Below are positions 17,199 to 24,395 of a stretch of DNA of 64,000 nt, one piece after another; the first letter of the stretch is position 1; every line of letters starts with the position of its first letter. The notes below the pieces were generated by a model. The model was not told the DNA's origin. It made no database searches and saw only the letters and a list, made by a program, of their open reading frames with translations. Position numbers and translations under genes: made by a program. Source of the DNA: Dehalococcoidia bacterium (lineage in GTDB: Bacteria; Chloroflexota; Dehalococcoidia; UBA6926); contig VXMO01000029.1 of the NCBI GenBank assembly GCA_009841045.1, positions 12,766-76,765 of the forward strand, given 5' to 3'.

Positions 17199-17359
17199 AT
17201 AGGTGAAAGGTTACTCCCCCTATGTGATAACGGCAATACGACAGAACATAAGAGAGCGCATTCATATGCCACATGGAGTTGCGTGACAAGTACTCATGTT
17301 CTTATCTTTCCGCCATTGGATACCGCCGGAACAACGCCGCTCACAGGGAGGTGAAACGA

Positions 17360-18250
17360 ATGGCGCTGACATTGACGGAAGCAGCCAAGCTCTCCAACGA
17401 CGTCCTGCTGCAGGGCGTGATTGAAACCGTGATCAAGGACAGCCCCGTTCTCCAGACGCTGCCCTTCATTGAGATTGTCGGAAACGGTCTCACGTACAAC
17501 AGGGAAAAGGCCGCGCCGACGGTCAGTTTCTACAGTGTTGGCGATACGTGGGCGGAAAGCACGCCGACGTTCACCCAGTTGACAGCGACGCTCTCCATTT
17601 TGGGCGGCGACGCGGACGTGGACAACTATCTTGCGACCACGCGGTCCAACATCCAGGACCTTGAGGTGGCGGTCGTTCAGTTGAAAGCGCGGGCCATCCA
17701 GCACAAGTTCGAGGACACGTTCATCAACGGAAACACTGACACGAATGACGACTCGTTTGATGGGCTCGATGTGCTGGCGACGGGCGATCAGGCCCTCACG
17801 ATGGGGCAGGACGGCGGCACGCTGACGCTGGACAAGCTCGATGAACTGATTGACTCGGTCAAGGGCGGGAAGCCGGAGATGCTCCTGATGAGCCGCCGCT
17901 CCCGCCGTAAGCTCAACTCGCTTGCCCGCGCTTCCGGCTCCGGCGTCGTGGTGTCCGACCGCGACGAGTTCGGTCAGATGGTGCAGTACTACGACGGCAT
18001 CCCAGTGGGCGTGAACGACTGGATCTCCGATGCGCAGACGGTTGGGAACAGCGCCGACTGCTCGACAATCTTCGCCTACCAGGCAGGCGAGGGTGGTCTC
18101 GTTGGGCTAACGTCGCCGGGCGGGCTGCAGGTGGAGCGTGTCGGCAACCTGGAGACGAAGGACGCGCGGCGAACGCGCGTGAAGTGGTACGTGAGCCTTG
18201 CCCTGTTCAACACGGCCAAGCTCGCCAAGCTGACGGGAGTCCGGGACTAG
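17360..18250 (+). CDS. Phage major capsid protein, epsilon15 gp7-like (HK97 fold)
   Basis: MALTLTEAAKLSNDVLLQGVIETVIKDSPVLQTLPFIEIVGNGLTYNREKAAP...LGGDADVDNYL...FINGNTDTNDDSFDGLDVL...NSLARASGSG; ATG preceded by GGGAGGTG. Confidence 0.85.
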   Translation: MALTLTEAAKLSNDVLLQGVIETVIKDSPVLQTLPFIEIVGNGLTYNREKAAPTVSFYSVGDTWAESTPTFTQLTATLSILGGDADVDNYLATTRSNIQDLEVAVVQLKARAIQHKFEDTFINGNTDTNDDSFDGLDVLATGDQALTMGQDGGTLTLDKLDELIDSVKGGKPEMLLMSRRSRRKLNSLARASGSGVVVSDRDEFGQMVQYYDGIPVGVNDWISDAQTVGNSADCSTIFAYQAGEGGLVGLTSPGGLQVERVGNLETKDARRTRVKWYVSLALFNTAKLAKLTGVRD

Positions 18251-18254
18251 TTTC

Positions 18255-18347
18255 CCGGTTCGCGATCACCGCAGAAATATACCCACATTCGGTTCCCGCG
18301 TTCCGGCATGGGCAGATTATGAAGATTCATTCCGGTTCGCGATCACC
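18255..18347 (+). repeat. 16-bp direct repeat CCGGTTCGCGATCACC at 18255-18270 and 18332-18347, within intergenic spacer
   Basis: Two perfect copies 77 bp apart between capsid and adaptor genes. Confidence 0.85.
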
Positions 18348-18368
18348 ACAGGGATAGAAGGACGAACG

Positions 18369-18983
18369 ATGAGCACGTTGGGACAGGTGCGGGAGCGCGT
18401 GCGGCGCGATCTGCATGACGAGGACGCCAGCAGCTACCGCTGGACGGACGATGTACTGAATCGTCACATCGAGCGGGCGCTTGCGAAGGTCTCAAAGGTC
18501 GCGCCGCATGAAAAGACCGTCTCCAAGGGGCTGACAGGCGGCAACAGGGAGGTCTCGGTTGCGGATCTGACTGATCGCGTCGTTGTTGAAGCCGTCGAGT
18601 ATCCCGTCGGCAAGCACCCGCCGTCCCGCGTGCGCTTCAACCAATGGGGCGACACGCTGATGTTGAACCTGCCCGGCGAGCCGACGGCCGGCGAGAGCGT
18701 CACCGTGTATTACGGGGCGCTGCATCGGCTGACGGACTCCGCATCCACCCTGCCCGAGGCGCTGGAGGAGTTAGTCATCACGGGCGCGGCGGCGTACGCG
18801 GCGCTGGAGTGGGCCGCCTACGCGGTCAATCGCCTCAACGTCGGGGGCCAGGACGTGTGGCGGCAGTACCTGACATGGGCGGAGGAGCGGATGGCCGACT
18901 TTGAACTGCAGTTGGCGCGAATCGGCCGCCGCTCAGGTTTTCGCGCCCGAAAGCTCTTTCATCCGGACGATGGTGAACTCTAG
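18369..18983 (+). CDS. Phage head-tail adaptor/connector-like protein
   Basis: MSTLGQVRERVRRDLHDEDASSYRWTDDVLNRHIERALAKVS...YYGALHRLTDSASTLPEALEELVITGAAAYAALEWA: typical phage adaptor pattern. Confidence 0.75.
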   Translation: MSTLGQVRERVRRDLHDEDASSYRWTDDVLNRHIERALAKVSKVAPHEKTVSKGLTGGNREVSVADLTDRVVVEAVEYPVGKHPPSRVRFNQWGDTLMLNLPGEPTAGESVTVYYGALHRLTDSASTLPEALEELVITGAAAYAALEWAAYAVNRLNVGGQDVWRQYLTWAEERMADFELQLARIGRRSGFRARKLFHPDDGEL

Positions 18984-18987
18984 AACG

Positions 18988-20973
18988 ATGCATTCGCTAT
19001 CTGAAACCCTGCTCGCGGCGCAGCGCGACCGCGCAGCCATTCCATACGTACACGCCACGCTCGCCGAGCGGTGGGGCGGTGTGACACAACTCCGCTGGGA
19101 ACGCCTTGTCTCCGGGCAGGAGCCAGACGGGCCACATGACGCCGTTATCACGTCCGCCGGCTCACTCATCCGCGTCCGCGCACAGGCCGACCCGAACGGG
19201 CTCTTCGTACAAAGAACCGCCGCTCCCGGCCCGGATTCCCGATTCGGGACGTGGCGAAATCTCGGCGCGACATCCACCTCAGCAGGTGTTGCGGTCATTG
19301 AGCTTGGCGGGCAGATTCATGTGTTTGATGTTGCTGCCAATCAGCGGACGATCCGCGAGCGAACAAGCCGGGATGACGGCGTGACCTTTGGCTCGCCACG
19401 CACAGTCGCTACGGCGGCAGCAAGTGTGATCTCCCTTGCGGCGGCGTCCGGCGCGGGCGGGAGTGCGCTGCTGCTATACGCGGAATCAACAGGCCGCGTT
19501 CGCTCTATGACACGAACGGCGGCGGCATGGTCGTCACCCGCCGCATGGACCAACTCGCTGAGGACGGTACACGGCATCGCCTGCGCTCACATCGACGGCG
19601 ATTGGGCAGTAGTGGTGTGCGGGACACTCCCAAACGGATCGTCAGGAGTATGGACGTGCACCCTTGGCGCGGGCACATCGCAGACCGTGGGGACGTGGTC
19701 GACGCTGCGTGAGGTAATCGCGTCGGCTCCCGGGGCAGAGGTGACATATCGGGAACCCGGCCTCTGCATCGCGGACGGGCCGCGCATCAGCTTTGTCGAG
19801 GTGTATGGCGGGGCCGGCAGCTACACACAGACGATGACAACGCACACTGCAGCGGGGGCGCGCTTCCGCGACCATCGTTGGCGCGAGCCTTGGCCGCTCG
19901 CCCAGATTGGAGGGACAGGGTCTGCGCTCACTGCCAATGCCTCCTTCGCGTGGCTGACGACGCCGTCCGGTGTCTGGCGGGCACGCATCGGCACGCCATC
20001 TATCGATGTTTCCCAGTCCGTCATTGCCGCAGATGCGAGAGAGACGCCGCGCGGCGCTTCTGTGGCACTCGTTCTGGCTGAGGGGCCACATCTTGATTCT
20101 TCGATCATGGTTGGCTCCGGTCCACTGGGGCACGAACTCAGCATCGCATGGGGATATGTGACCGCCGAAGGGCAGGAGACGGGTCAGCCCCAGCGGTATT
20201 GGGTGCGCGAAGTTCGACGCGAGACGCGGCGGGGCAGCCCTGTCACTGTGTTCGGGGCGGAGGACTCATGGTGGTTCCTGGGCAACATGCGGACGCGGCG
20301 TCAACTCACGTGGCCCGCGCACACGGCGTCCGTGTGGAACATCCTCGGCCAACTGCTCACGATGGCGGGCCTGTCCGCCACGCTTGCACGCTCAAGCCCC
20401 GCTATCGTGGCCACTTATCCCGCCATCACGATCTCCCCGAACGACAGCCTCGCGGTTGCCGTCAACCGCCTCGTGTCCCGCGTGCCGGATGTTCTGCGTT
20501 TCTCAGACGGCGTGCTGGAGGTGATCCATACGCGTGAGACTGACCCCAGCGTCTATTCCTATGGGGAGACGGGTGGCCATGCCCTGCTCGACGCTGCGCG
20601 CTCATCCGCGCTCTCCCGCGTCAACCACGTGCAGGTCTACGGGCGCGGGGCGATCGCGCAGGCGGTGAACGAACGCGAGATGGCATCCGTCGGCAGTCTA
20701 CTGGTGCAGGTCGTCGACCCCTCACTGACAACAGTGGAGGTGGCGGCCACGAGGGCAAATGCTGAGCTGCGTTCGCGCGGCACCCTCCAGCCCTATGCAC
20801 GCATCACGGTTCCCGTGAACGCCGGGCAGCAGTTGCATGACGTGGTGTCCGTCACCGCGCTTTCCGTGGGGTGGGTGTCGGAGCGGCTGCGCGTTGCAGG
20901 CCTTCGGACGCGCTACGACATCAGCAGGTCGCAGCCGGTGTACGAACAGGACATCGACCTGAGCGGGGTGTAG
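18988..20973 (+). CDS. Phage tail/baseplate hub-like protein with N-terminal beta-propeller-like region
   Basis: N-terminal half has sialidase/BNR-like repeats (TWRNLGATSTS, DDGVTFGSPRTV); C-terminal half resembles phage tail-hub proteins (QQLHDVVSVTALSVGWVSERLRVAGLRTRYDISR). Confidence 0.6.
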   Translation: MHSLSETLLAAQRDRAAIPYVHATLAERWGGVTQLRWERLVSGQEPDGPHDAVITSAGSLIRVRAQADPNGLFVQRTAAPGPDSRFGTWRNLGATSTSAGVAVIELGGQIHVFDVAANQRTIRERTSRDDGVTFGSPRTVATAAASVISLAAASGAGGSALLLYAESTGRVRSMTRTAAAWSSPAAWTNSLRTVHGIACAHIDGDWAVVVCGTLPNGSSGVWTCTLGAGTSQTVGTWSTLREVIASAPGAEVTYREPGLCIADGPRISFVEVYGGAGSYTQTMTTHTAAGARFRDHRWREPWPLAQIGGTGSALTANASFAWLTTPSGVWRARIGTPSIDVSQSVIAADARETPRGASVALVLAEGPHLDSSIMVGSGPLGHELSIAWGYVTAEGQETGQPQRYWVREVRRETRRGSPVTVFGAEDSWWFLGNMRTRRQLTWPAHTASVWNILGQLLTMAGLSATLARSSPAIVATYPAITISPNDSLAVAVNRLVSRVPDVLRFSDGVLEVIHTRETDPSVYSYGETGGHALLDAARSSALSRVNHVQVYGRGAIAQAVNEREMASVGSLLVQVVDPSLTTVEVAATRANAELRSRGTLQPYARITVPVNAGQQLHDVVSVTALSVGWVSERLRVAGLRTRYDISRSQPVYEQDIDLSGV

Positions 20974-20975
20974 GC

Positions 20976-21191
20976 ATGGAGCTGCGTCGGGGCATGATCA
21001 GGAGTTTCGATTCGACGACGTTCAGGGCGGATGTTCAGCTGGACGGTAGCGTGCCGACATGGCTGACCGGGGCGCGCATCAGCCGGGCCATCCCCTCCAC
21101 GGAGATGCTGGCCGGTCGGTCCTGCATCGTGGCCTTCGCGTCGGACCCATCCGATCCAACTGAAGCCGTCGTCATCGCGGTCTACACGTAG
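20976..21191 (+). CDS. Small OB-fold baseplate/spike (gpV-like) protein
   Basis: MELRRGMIRSFDSTTFRADVQLDGSVPTWLTGARISRAIPSTEMLAGRSCIVAFASDPSDPTEAVVIAVYT; starts 3 nt after upstream stop. Confidence 0.6.
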   Translation: MELRRGMIRSFDSTTFRADVQLDGSVPTWLTGARISRAIPSTEMLAGRSCIVAFASDPSDPTEAVVIAVYT

Positions 21192-22847: not shown

Positions 22848-24395
22848 ATGACGTTGGCACATGTGCGCAGCTGCGCAGTCGTCGGTCTTGAGGGTTCGAT
22901 TGTTGAGGTGGAGGTGGACATCGCGCCCGGCCTGCCCGCTTTCACGATTGTGGGGCTGCCGGACACGGCGGTGCAGGAGGCGCGGGAGCGCGTTCGCGCG
23001 GCAATCAGGAATTCCGGGTTTGAGTTTCCGCAGCGTCGAATCACGGTCTCCCTTGCTCCCGCGGACCTGAAGAAGAACGGAACATCCTATGATCTGCCCA
23101 TCGCGGCGGGCATTCTCATCGGTTCGGGACAGGCCGGAGCACAATTCTCTTTGGAGGACGTCGCTTTCCTGGGCGAGCTTTCGCTTGAGGGACAGGTGCG
23201 GCATACGCAGGGCGTGCTGCCGATGACGGCACTGGCGCGAGAGGGTGGACTGACGCAGATCGTCGTTCCGGCTGTCGACGCGCCTGAGGCCGCTCTCGTG
23301 GACGGCATCGAGGTGCTGCCCGCGGGCAACCTGCGCGAGCTTGTGGAGCACATCAGCGGCGAGCAGTCGTTCCGCCCCTTCTATCAGACTGAGCCGCCGG
23401 CAGACCCGGGCGGGACGGCAACCATCGACGGCTTCGATATGTCGCTCGTCCGGGGGCAGGAGAATGTTAAGCGAGCGTTGGAGGTTGCCGCGGCGGGCGG
23501 CCACAACCTGGTGATGATGGGACCGCCGGGCAGCGGAAAGACGCTGCTTGCGCGCTGCCTGCCGTCCGTTCTCCCCACGATGACACGGGAGGAATCACTG
23601 GATGTGACGAAGATCTACAGCGTGGCGGGGTTGCTGCCGCCGGAGCGGCCACTCATCTCCGCCCGTCCGTTCCGCGCGCCGCACTACACGGTTTCCAACG
23701 CGGGGCTGGTGGGCGGCGGGCACTGGCCGCGCCCAGGCGAGATCACGCTTTCCCACCGGGGCGTCCTTTTTCTTGATGAGATGCCGGAGTTCGGCCACCA
23801 CATTCTGGAAGTGCTGCGGCAGCCGCTGGAGGACAAAGCGGTGACAATCAGCCGTGCCCAAGGTTCGATCACGTTCCCGGCCAATTTCATGCTTGTGGGC
23901 GCGATGAACCCCTGCCCGTGCGGGTTCTACGGGGACGTTGTGAAGGCGTGCTCCTGCTCACCCTCCGCCATTGACCGCTATCAGCGCCGCATCAGCGGGC
24001 CACTGCTGGATCGCATTGACATCTTTGTGGACGTGCCGCGCGTGGAGTACGAGAAACTGACGGACGAACGGAAAGGCGAGACATCGGCGGTTGTGCGAAA
24101 TCGCGTGGAGGAGGCGCGGACGCGGCAACGGGCACGATTCGGCAGTTCGCCCGGTGTGCTCACCAACGCGGACATGGGGCCGGTGGAGGTGCGCGAGTTC
24201 TGCGGGCTGGACGATGCGTCGCATGGGCTGTTGCGGGCGGCGATGCAGCAGTTGCACCTGAGCGCTCGAGGCTACCATCGCATTCTCAAGCTGGCGCGGA
24301 CGATTGCGGACTTGGCTGAGGAGCCGGCTATTACCTCCCGCCATCTGAGCGAGGCGCTTCAGTATCGGCCACGCGAACTGGGCGCGGCGGCGTAG
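22848..24395 (+). CDS. comM: YifB/ComM-family Mg-chelatase-like AAA ATPase
   Basis: AFTIVGLPDTAVQEARERVRAAI, MMGPPGSGKTLLARCLPSVLP, GEITLSHRGVLFLDEMPEF, AMNPCPCGFYGD. Confidence 0.93.
   Translation: MTLAHVRSCAVVGLEGSIVEVEVDIAPGLPAFTIVGLPDTAVQEARERVRAAIRNSGFEFPQRRITVSLAPADLKKNGTSYDLPIAAGILIGSGQAGAQFSLEDVAFLGELSLEGQVRHTQGVLPMTALAREGGLTQIVVPAVDAPEAALVDGIEVLPAGNLRELVEHISGEQSFRPFYQTEPPADPGGTATIDGFDMSLVRGQENVKRALEVAAAGGHNLVMMGPPGSGKTLLARCLPSVLPTMTREESLDVTKIYSVAGLLPPERPLISARPFRAPHYTVSNAGLVGGGHWPRPGEITLSHRGVLFLDEMPEFGHHILEVLRQPLEDKAVTISRAQGSITFPANFMLVGAMNPCPCGFYGDVVKACSCSPSAIDRYQRRISGPLLDRIDIFVDVPRVEYEKLTDERKGETSAVVRNRVEEARTRQRARFGSSPGVLTNADMGPVEVREFCGLDDASHGLLRAAMQQLHLSARGYHRILKLARTIADLAEEPAITSRHLSEALQYRPRELGAAA

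Follow-up and report, generated by a model that had tools for sequence, protein, structure and literature searches.

A dispersed gene transfer agent candidate with SOS-type boxes in Dehalococcoidia of the phylum Chloroflexota

A four-gene island in the chromosome of a Dehalococcoidia bacterium is likely to encode the head and tail parts of a particle of Chloroflexota that resembles a gene transfer agent (GTA), is domesticated and SOS-regulated, and has its genes dispersed over several loci. Given the selection acting on the genes, their vertical inheritance and the presence of switches of the DNA-damage-response type, the host bacteria probably make particles carrying their own DNA. The system most likely works like a GTA.

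Known GTAs are few and mostly alphaproteobacterial. A 2024 review describes further examples as hard to find outside Alphaproteobacteria, and asks how frequent they are and how GTAs are to be distinguished from phages (PMC11841831). A search that covered the open-access literature found no publication that describes a GTA from Chloroflexota or from Dehalococcoidia.

Genes and surroundings of the island

The island lies in a window of 64,000 nt, which is the whole stretch of DNA analyzed (VXMO01000029.1, positions 12,766-76,765; assembly GCA_009841045.1, Dehalococcoidia bacterium, UBA6926). This is a core chromosomal region with gyrB, dnaN, dnaA and a ComM/YifB-like gene, and the GC content of the island (64%) equals that of its flanks. 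As described in the first-pass annotation of this DNA, the flanking genes encode TPR proteins, YCII, ASCH and Usp, with the YCII match scoring slightly below the Pfam cut-off. Within the 64-kb window, we saw neither a terminase or portal gene nor an integrase, tRNA or lysis gene. The four intact, co-directional open reading frames that the annotation had described are present on the + strand, and are listed here with the site that precedes them:

17289-17302, + strand: LexA/SOS-box-like site AGTACTCATGTTCT, upstream of the capsid gene
17360-18250, + strand: major capsid protein (MCP), HK97 fold, GP7 type, 296 aa (Pfam, PHROGs)
18369-18983, + strand: head-tail adaptor, SU10-adaptor type, 204 aa (SU10_adaptor 4.2e-9)
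18988-20973, + strand: tail hub, gp27/gp44/VgrG fold with inserted beta-propeller, 661 aa (AlphaFold, Foldseek, PHROG 1887)
20976-21191, + strand: OB-fold tail-spike-like protein without beta-helix tip, 71 aa (AlphaFold, Foldseek)

The capsid protein had been proposed to be epsilon15 gp7-like, and this identity is borne out by matches to Pfam GP7 (1.5e-9), Phage_capsid (8e-8) and the PHROG 212 major head protein (2.7e-73). Pfam and PHROGs leave no doubt about the identities of capsid and adaptor. A PDB profile search with the capsid gave no match. Phage_cap_E was also considered as the capsid family and discarded as the wrong one, having no match in the genome. MCP is present as a single copy in this genome and was found in 46 of 100 genomes of the class, nearly always as one copy. 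The adaptor is a conserved neighbor, adjoining MCP in the sister species too.

The identities suggested earlier for the last two proteins, hub-like and OB-fold gpV-like, are supported by AlphaFold models. The hub, which starts 4 nt past the adaptor end, has no Pfam match and matches the PHROG 1887 tail protein at 4e-4. Its model (pLDDT 90.4) resembles the hubs of Mu (gp44), T4 (gp27), VgrG and extracellular contractile injection systems (Foldseek, E down to 3e-16). A second, separate set of Foldseek matches is to the Photorhabdus PLL/PHL beta-propeller lectins, from which we conclude that a beta-propeller is set into the hub, at roughly residues 60-360. The spike starts 2 nt past the hub end, in a conserved order, and its model has an OB fold (pLDDT 91.5). 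P2 gpV and the Mu spike make up its viral Foldseek matches; because the translation factor IF-1 gives the best score, this protein is named from its position in addition to its fold.

Packaging genes and their distribution

The first-pass annotation had described the island as being without packaging genes. Packaging genes are indeed missing from the window, but the genome has them at other loci. When the remainder of the genome was searched for split GTA-style loci, using profiles built from longer clusters in relatives, the following genes were located:

C24:3844-5220: large terminase (TerL), Terminase_6C 4e-5, single intact copy
C24:2039-3337: portal, SPP1_portal 2.7e-14, single intact copy
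C11:10195-10608: scaffold-like gene, profile match, single copy

MCP, TerL, portal and the scaffold-like gene all lack internal stops in this genome, and TerL retains the Walker-like RQAGKNE, LLLEIDEAQD and the acidic motifs of the nuclease. The packaging locus on C24 comprises a TerS-like gene, a coiled-coil/TM protein, the large terminase and the portal. The scaffold and TerS assignments are drawn from position in the family and low-scoring profile matches. All three loci keep their neighbors in the sister species (G002, G001), so the scatter of the genes does not stem from the assembly; G001 yielded no portal, as its contig stops there. Neither an integrase nor a replication gene was found at the loci of this genome, and an Amidase_2 endolysin was not found anywhere in it. 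Such an endolysin adjoins the spike in two relatives. The presence of a split GTA-style set in the same genome strongly supports the earlier suggestion that the island is a fragment of a GTA.

Across the class, capsid, terminase, portal and hub are nearly all-or-none. In a set of 60 good genomes, the complete quartet occurs in 23 and none of it in 22, with intermediate cases of three genes in 11 and one or two in 4; co-occurrence of the four is significant (Fisher p 1e-7 to 2e-12). About a third of the good class genomes are without the set. In about 15 of the 23 genomes with the full set, with coordinates taken by reading, the four genes are divided among contigs or separated by over 15 kb, a figure that contig breaks make an upper one for fragmented genomes. 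Dispersal is also seen in a closed Tepidiforma-like genome (G065), in which hub (1.213 Mb), scaffold (1.225), portal (1.288), capsid (1.4006) and terminase (1.404) are spread over about 190 kb. In genomes with one locus (e.g. L060, L029), the order is membrane protein, TerS-like, terminase, portal, scaffold, capsid, adaptor, hub and spike, and the L029 cluster stops immediately before gyrB. Other Chloroflexota classes have related clusters too, and one of these clusters (G407, L369) additionally encodes an Amidase_2 endolysin and a holin.

These distributions bear on another option raised in the annotation, namely that the island encodes a domesticated shell or injection device. Such a device would no longer package DNA, like an encapsulin, a tailocin or an extracellular contractile injection system. 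The island itself is without packaging genes, its hub fold is common to injection systems and MCP stands alone at some loci. However, TerL accompanies MCP in 27 of 28 MCP-positive good genomes, with the remaining one keeping portal and hub, and the TerL motifs are intact. In addition, no sheath or tube was recognized, and no cargo or toxin gene was found nearby. That genomes with the capsid also keep terminase and portal speaks against this option, and we regard it as unlikely.

Selection, inheritance and regulation

The module genes are under purifying selection. Relative to the two sister species, dN/dS is 0.06-0.09 for the capsid, 0.03-0.14 for the adaptor, 0.15-0.22 for the hub, 0.17-0.20 for the spike, 0.11 for the terminase and 0.10 for the portal, compared with 0.10-0.17 for gyrB. 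An XHLA-like gene has a higher dN/dS (0.29-0.34) than most module genes (0.03-0.2). As dS of the module genes equals that of the flanks, the low ratios indicate that the genes diverged alongside their neighbors and under constraint.

This evidence decides against a prophage remnant, that is, the leftover of an integrated phage drifting without function. IMG/VR does contain true temperate phages of 17-22 kb that share the module and have integrases, and some members of the family are decayed. Against this, the frames are intact and under purifying selection, unlinked genes are co-retained, and the same locus and flanks occur in three species; at this locus both sisters have the same four genes and no prophage. 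Relaxed selection, which would have been expected of a remnant, is contradicted by dN/dS values far below 1, and neither sporadic presence nor broken frames were observed in this genus. Prophage decay is thus refuted for this genus by dN/dS of 0.03-0.2 and synteny, and the remnant reading, also offered in the annotation, is rejected; as an account of the system we hold it to be extremely improbable. Elsewhere in the class, stops interrupt the genes of G049 and G099, and the Dehalococcoides-like genomes G018 and G054 keep TerS and terminase, with the rest truncated or absent.

Inheritance of the module is mostly vertical, with some discordance. The capsid tree recovers all eight families with more than one member. 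Quartet agreement with GyrB, calculated with one genome per family, is 0.53 for capsid, 0.59 for terminase, 0.67 for portal, 0.44 for adaptor and 0.54 for hub, against 0.33 by chance, and exceeds all 300 shuffles for each of the five. Mantel correlations with GyrB are significant for TerL (0.49) and portal (0.32); for MCP, the value on raw distances is -0.03 and not significant. Since the topology tests are significant for MCP where the Mantel test is not, there has been some transfer or variation in rate, and the claim of vertical inheritance is based on topology.

The separate operons are preceded by putative LexA/SOS-type operators. The box upstream of the capsid gene (AGTACTCATGTTCT) has one mismatch of eight to GAAC-N4-GTTC, and each of the two sister species has a box at the matching position (AGTACGGGTGTTCT, CGTACATATGTTCT). 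The lexA gene of the genus itself has CGAACATGGGTTCG, or a near variant of it, in front. The pattern AGAAYN4RTTCT has only five sites in this genome: one before recN, two before impB/mucB-family genes, one before the packaging operon and one within a gene. By eye, the packaging-operon site (C24:6225) sits between TTGACG and TATTCT, and would therefore overlap a promoter. No 12-mers are shared among the upstream regions of this genome, and the operator surfaced through a scan for SOS-type palindromes.

The box pattern, which was found post hoc, extends across the class, where the first genes of the module's operons have boxes far more often than host genes; boxes precede 67% of scaffold-gene starts versus 11% of host genes (p 7e-13). 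In the named contigs, which partly overlap the discovery set, the figures are 37% for capsid starts versus 11% for neighboring host genes. Internal adaptor and hub starts have boxes in 9% of cases and show no enrichment, and related viral contigs have them at background level.

Taken as a GTA, the system would operate as follows. DNA damage would cause LexA to leave the operators before the separate operons. Capsid and scaffold would then build a head on the portal, and the terminase would fill it with host DNA. The adaptor, a hub trimer with its lectin-like beta-propeller and the OB spike would close the head as a very short tail, which may recognize and open the recipient cell. The sequences show the parts, their single copies, their co-retention although unlinked, the purifying selection, the mostly vertical inheritance and the box enrichment. 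We infer that particles assemble and are released, that they package and deliver host DNA, and that LexA binds the operators.

Relation to known GTAs and phages

GTAs are defined as particles formed from caudoviricete-derived proteins, whose genes have become fully endogenous to the host, in many cases at more than one locus, and are mostly inherited vertically, co-diversifying with the host; they package mostly random host DNA, never their own whole genome, and deliver it to other cells (PMC9662315). Here, caudoviricete-derived particle proteins are recognized by protein homology only. Endogenized genes occur at several loci, with three in this genome and dispersal in closed genomes, and vertical inheritance is evident from families and quartets, with the MCP Mantel test not significant. 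Unlinked loci imply that the particle probably could not package its own whole genome. With three of the six features that PMC9662315 lists recognizable by sequence, the system qualifies as a GTA candidate, known here from its genes.

Among characterized systems, the RcGTA-like GTAs of Alphaproteobacteria (Rhodogtaviriformidae) likewise have phage-derived capsid, portal, terminase and tail genes that are chromosomal, vertically inherited and partly dispersed (PMC9662315). The Chloroflexota set differs in its phylum, in its GP7-type capsid, in having no recognized tail tube, sheath or tape measure, and in its much stronger dispersal, with single genes over about 190 kb. In the account of Kuchinski et al. 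2016 cited in PMC6473078, SOS/LexA input reaches the GTA of Rhodobacter capsulatus via cckA; relative to that account, LexA-type boxes lie here directly before the structural operons. The Brachyspira GTA VSH-1/BhGTA also has split loci, with its single conserved terL outside the structural cluster, and differs in its spirochaete host and in having genes without close viral relatives (PMC9662315).

If the reading as a GTA is correct, a class-wide and probably phylum-wide GTA would exist in mostly uncultured bacteria, including organohalide respirers, and would offer a route for gene exchange among Chloroflexota hosts. It would explain the short 'viral' contigs from such genomes that fill virus databases. 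It would also provide a rare natural comparison, in which one module can be followed as a free phage, as an intact GTA in the chromosome, as a dispersed GTA and as a decayed remnant. The proposed GTA is directly testable in cultured members: Tepidiforma flava (L142), an isolate with capsid and terminase in its complete genome, and probably Dehalogenimonas and Sphaerobacter.

The closest free relatives are temperate phages of 17-22 kb in IMG/VR. L357 is 18.4 kb with a 62-base terminal repeat, and L334 and L339 are 17-18.5 kb with the hub split across the contig ends. They are homologous to the chromosomal set, in the order TerS-TerL-portal-scaffold-MCP-adaptor-spike-hub, but differ in forming one replicon with other phage genes and an integrase-like gene each (by eye), and in lacking enrichment of LexA-type boxes. 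Among cultured phages, none was found closer than Pseudomonas phage Ab18, Streptomyces phage Rowa and Acinetobacter phage Effie. These have GP7-type MCP homologues (41-43% identity) and differ in their 43-57 kb genomes, with tape measure genes in Rowa and Effie.

Such relatives suggest a further alternative, a split selfish element in which a helper-dependent satellite or split-genome phage mobilizes its own loci. The related phages are temperate and some contigs carry integrases. Nonetheless, the loci of this genome have no integrase or replication gene, the window has no tRNA, the inheritance signal is vertical and the genes of the closed Tepidiforma-like genome span about 190 kb. An active prophage would have a contiguous genome, integrase and phage regulation at one site, and this combination was not observed at the loci of this genome. 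We consider a split selfish element very unlikely, and a domesticated GTA remains our preferred reading.

Trees inform how such a GTA may have arisen. In the portal tree without an outgroup, non-Dehalococcoidales portals form one clade. When other classes and distant phages are added, with the latter as outgroup, chromosomal copies from other classes and from Dehalococcoidia branch off at the base, with the small phages nested within them; support for the phage group is 98/89 and deeper nodes are weak. As the single clade of chromosomal copies is lost once other classes are added, we do not claim one domestication event. The trees fit a single ancient domestication, the phages having split off from the GTA later, and they also fit several captures. 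It is possible, if doubtful, that a phylum-level GTA predates the split of the Chloroflexota classes and became dispersed gene by gene yet stayed a LexA regulon, with the 17-22 kb phages of Dehalococcoidales deriving from it in a return from GTA to virus. Many shorter 'viral' contigs of 4-13 kb were also observed, and the flanks of L175 and L183 consist of opposite-strand genes that resemble host DNA.

Free phages and viral contigs

Three temperate phages in IMG/VR (L334, L339 and L357) are 17-18.5 kb in length and appear complete. They encode both a hub and an OB-fold spike; no tail tube or tape measure is recognizable in any of the three, and their tail is of a minimal design. At least 562 IMG/VR stretches encode an island-type capsid, with the best capsid matches located mostly on contigs of 4-8 kb. 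Many of these capsid-encoding contigs may be host gene transfer agent loci filed under viruses.

Module variants in other Chloroflexota

In two Dehalococcoides-like genomes, G018 (locus L074) and G054 (L075), genes for a TerS-like protein and for the terminase have been kept. Their portal, hub and spike genes are reduced to remnants or lost. In another Chloroflexota class, locus L369 (G407) has genes for TerS, an XhlA-like protein, scaffold, capsid, portal, adaptor and terminase; an Amidase_2 endolysin and a holin are also encoded there. An exact SOS-type box (a LexA-box-like palindrome) precedes this cluster.

Accessory genes and a repeat

Features of the module and of the island's surroundings are as follows:

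Window 18255-18270 and 18332-18347: two copies of the direct repeat CCGGTTCGCGATCACC between the capsid and adaptor genes
Window 22848-24395: ComM/YifB-type Mg-chelatase gene, separated from the island by 1.7 kb
L065:5283-5558 and relatives: k9 family, a small protein with a coiled coil and a C-terminal membrane segment, encoded between TerS-like and terminase genes
L067:10541-10897, for example: ZnHTH family, small cysteine-rich helix-turn-helix protein whose gene in many relatives lies between those for terminase and portal

The repeat is a possible attenuator or operator; its core did not turn up in those other module loci of the genome or sister-species loci that were checked. ComM/YifB-type proteins form a competence-related family, and competence proteins are required in the recipients of gene transfer agents in other systems. 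The ZnHTH protein is a candidate regulator. Judged by eye, the k9 protein is XhlA-like in appearance, and its dN/dS of 0.29-0.34 is the highest among the module genes.
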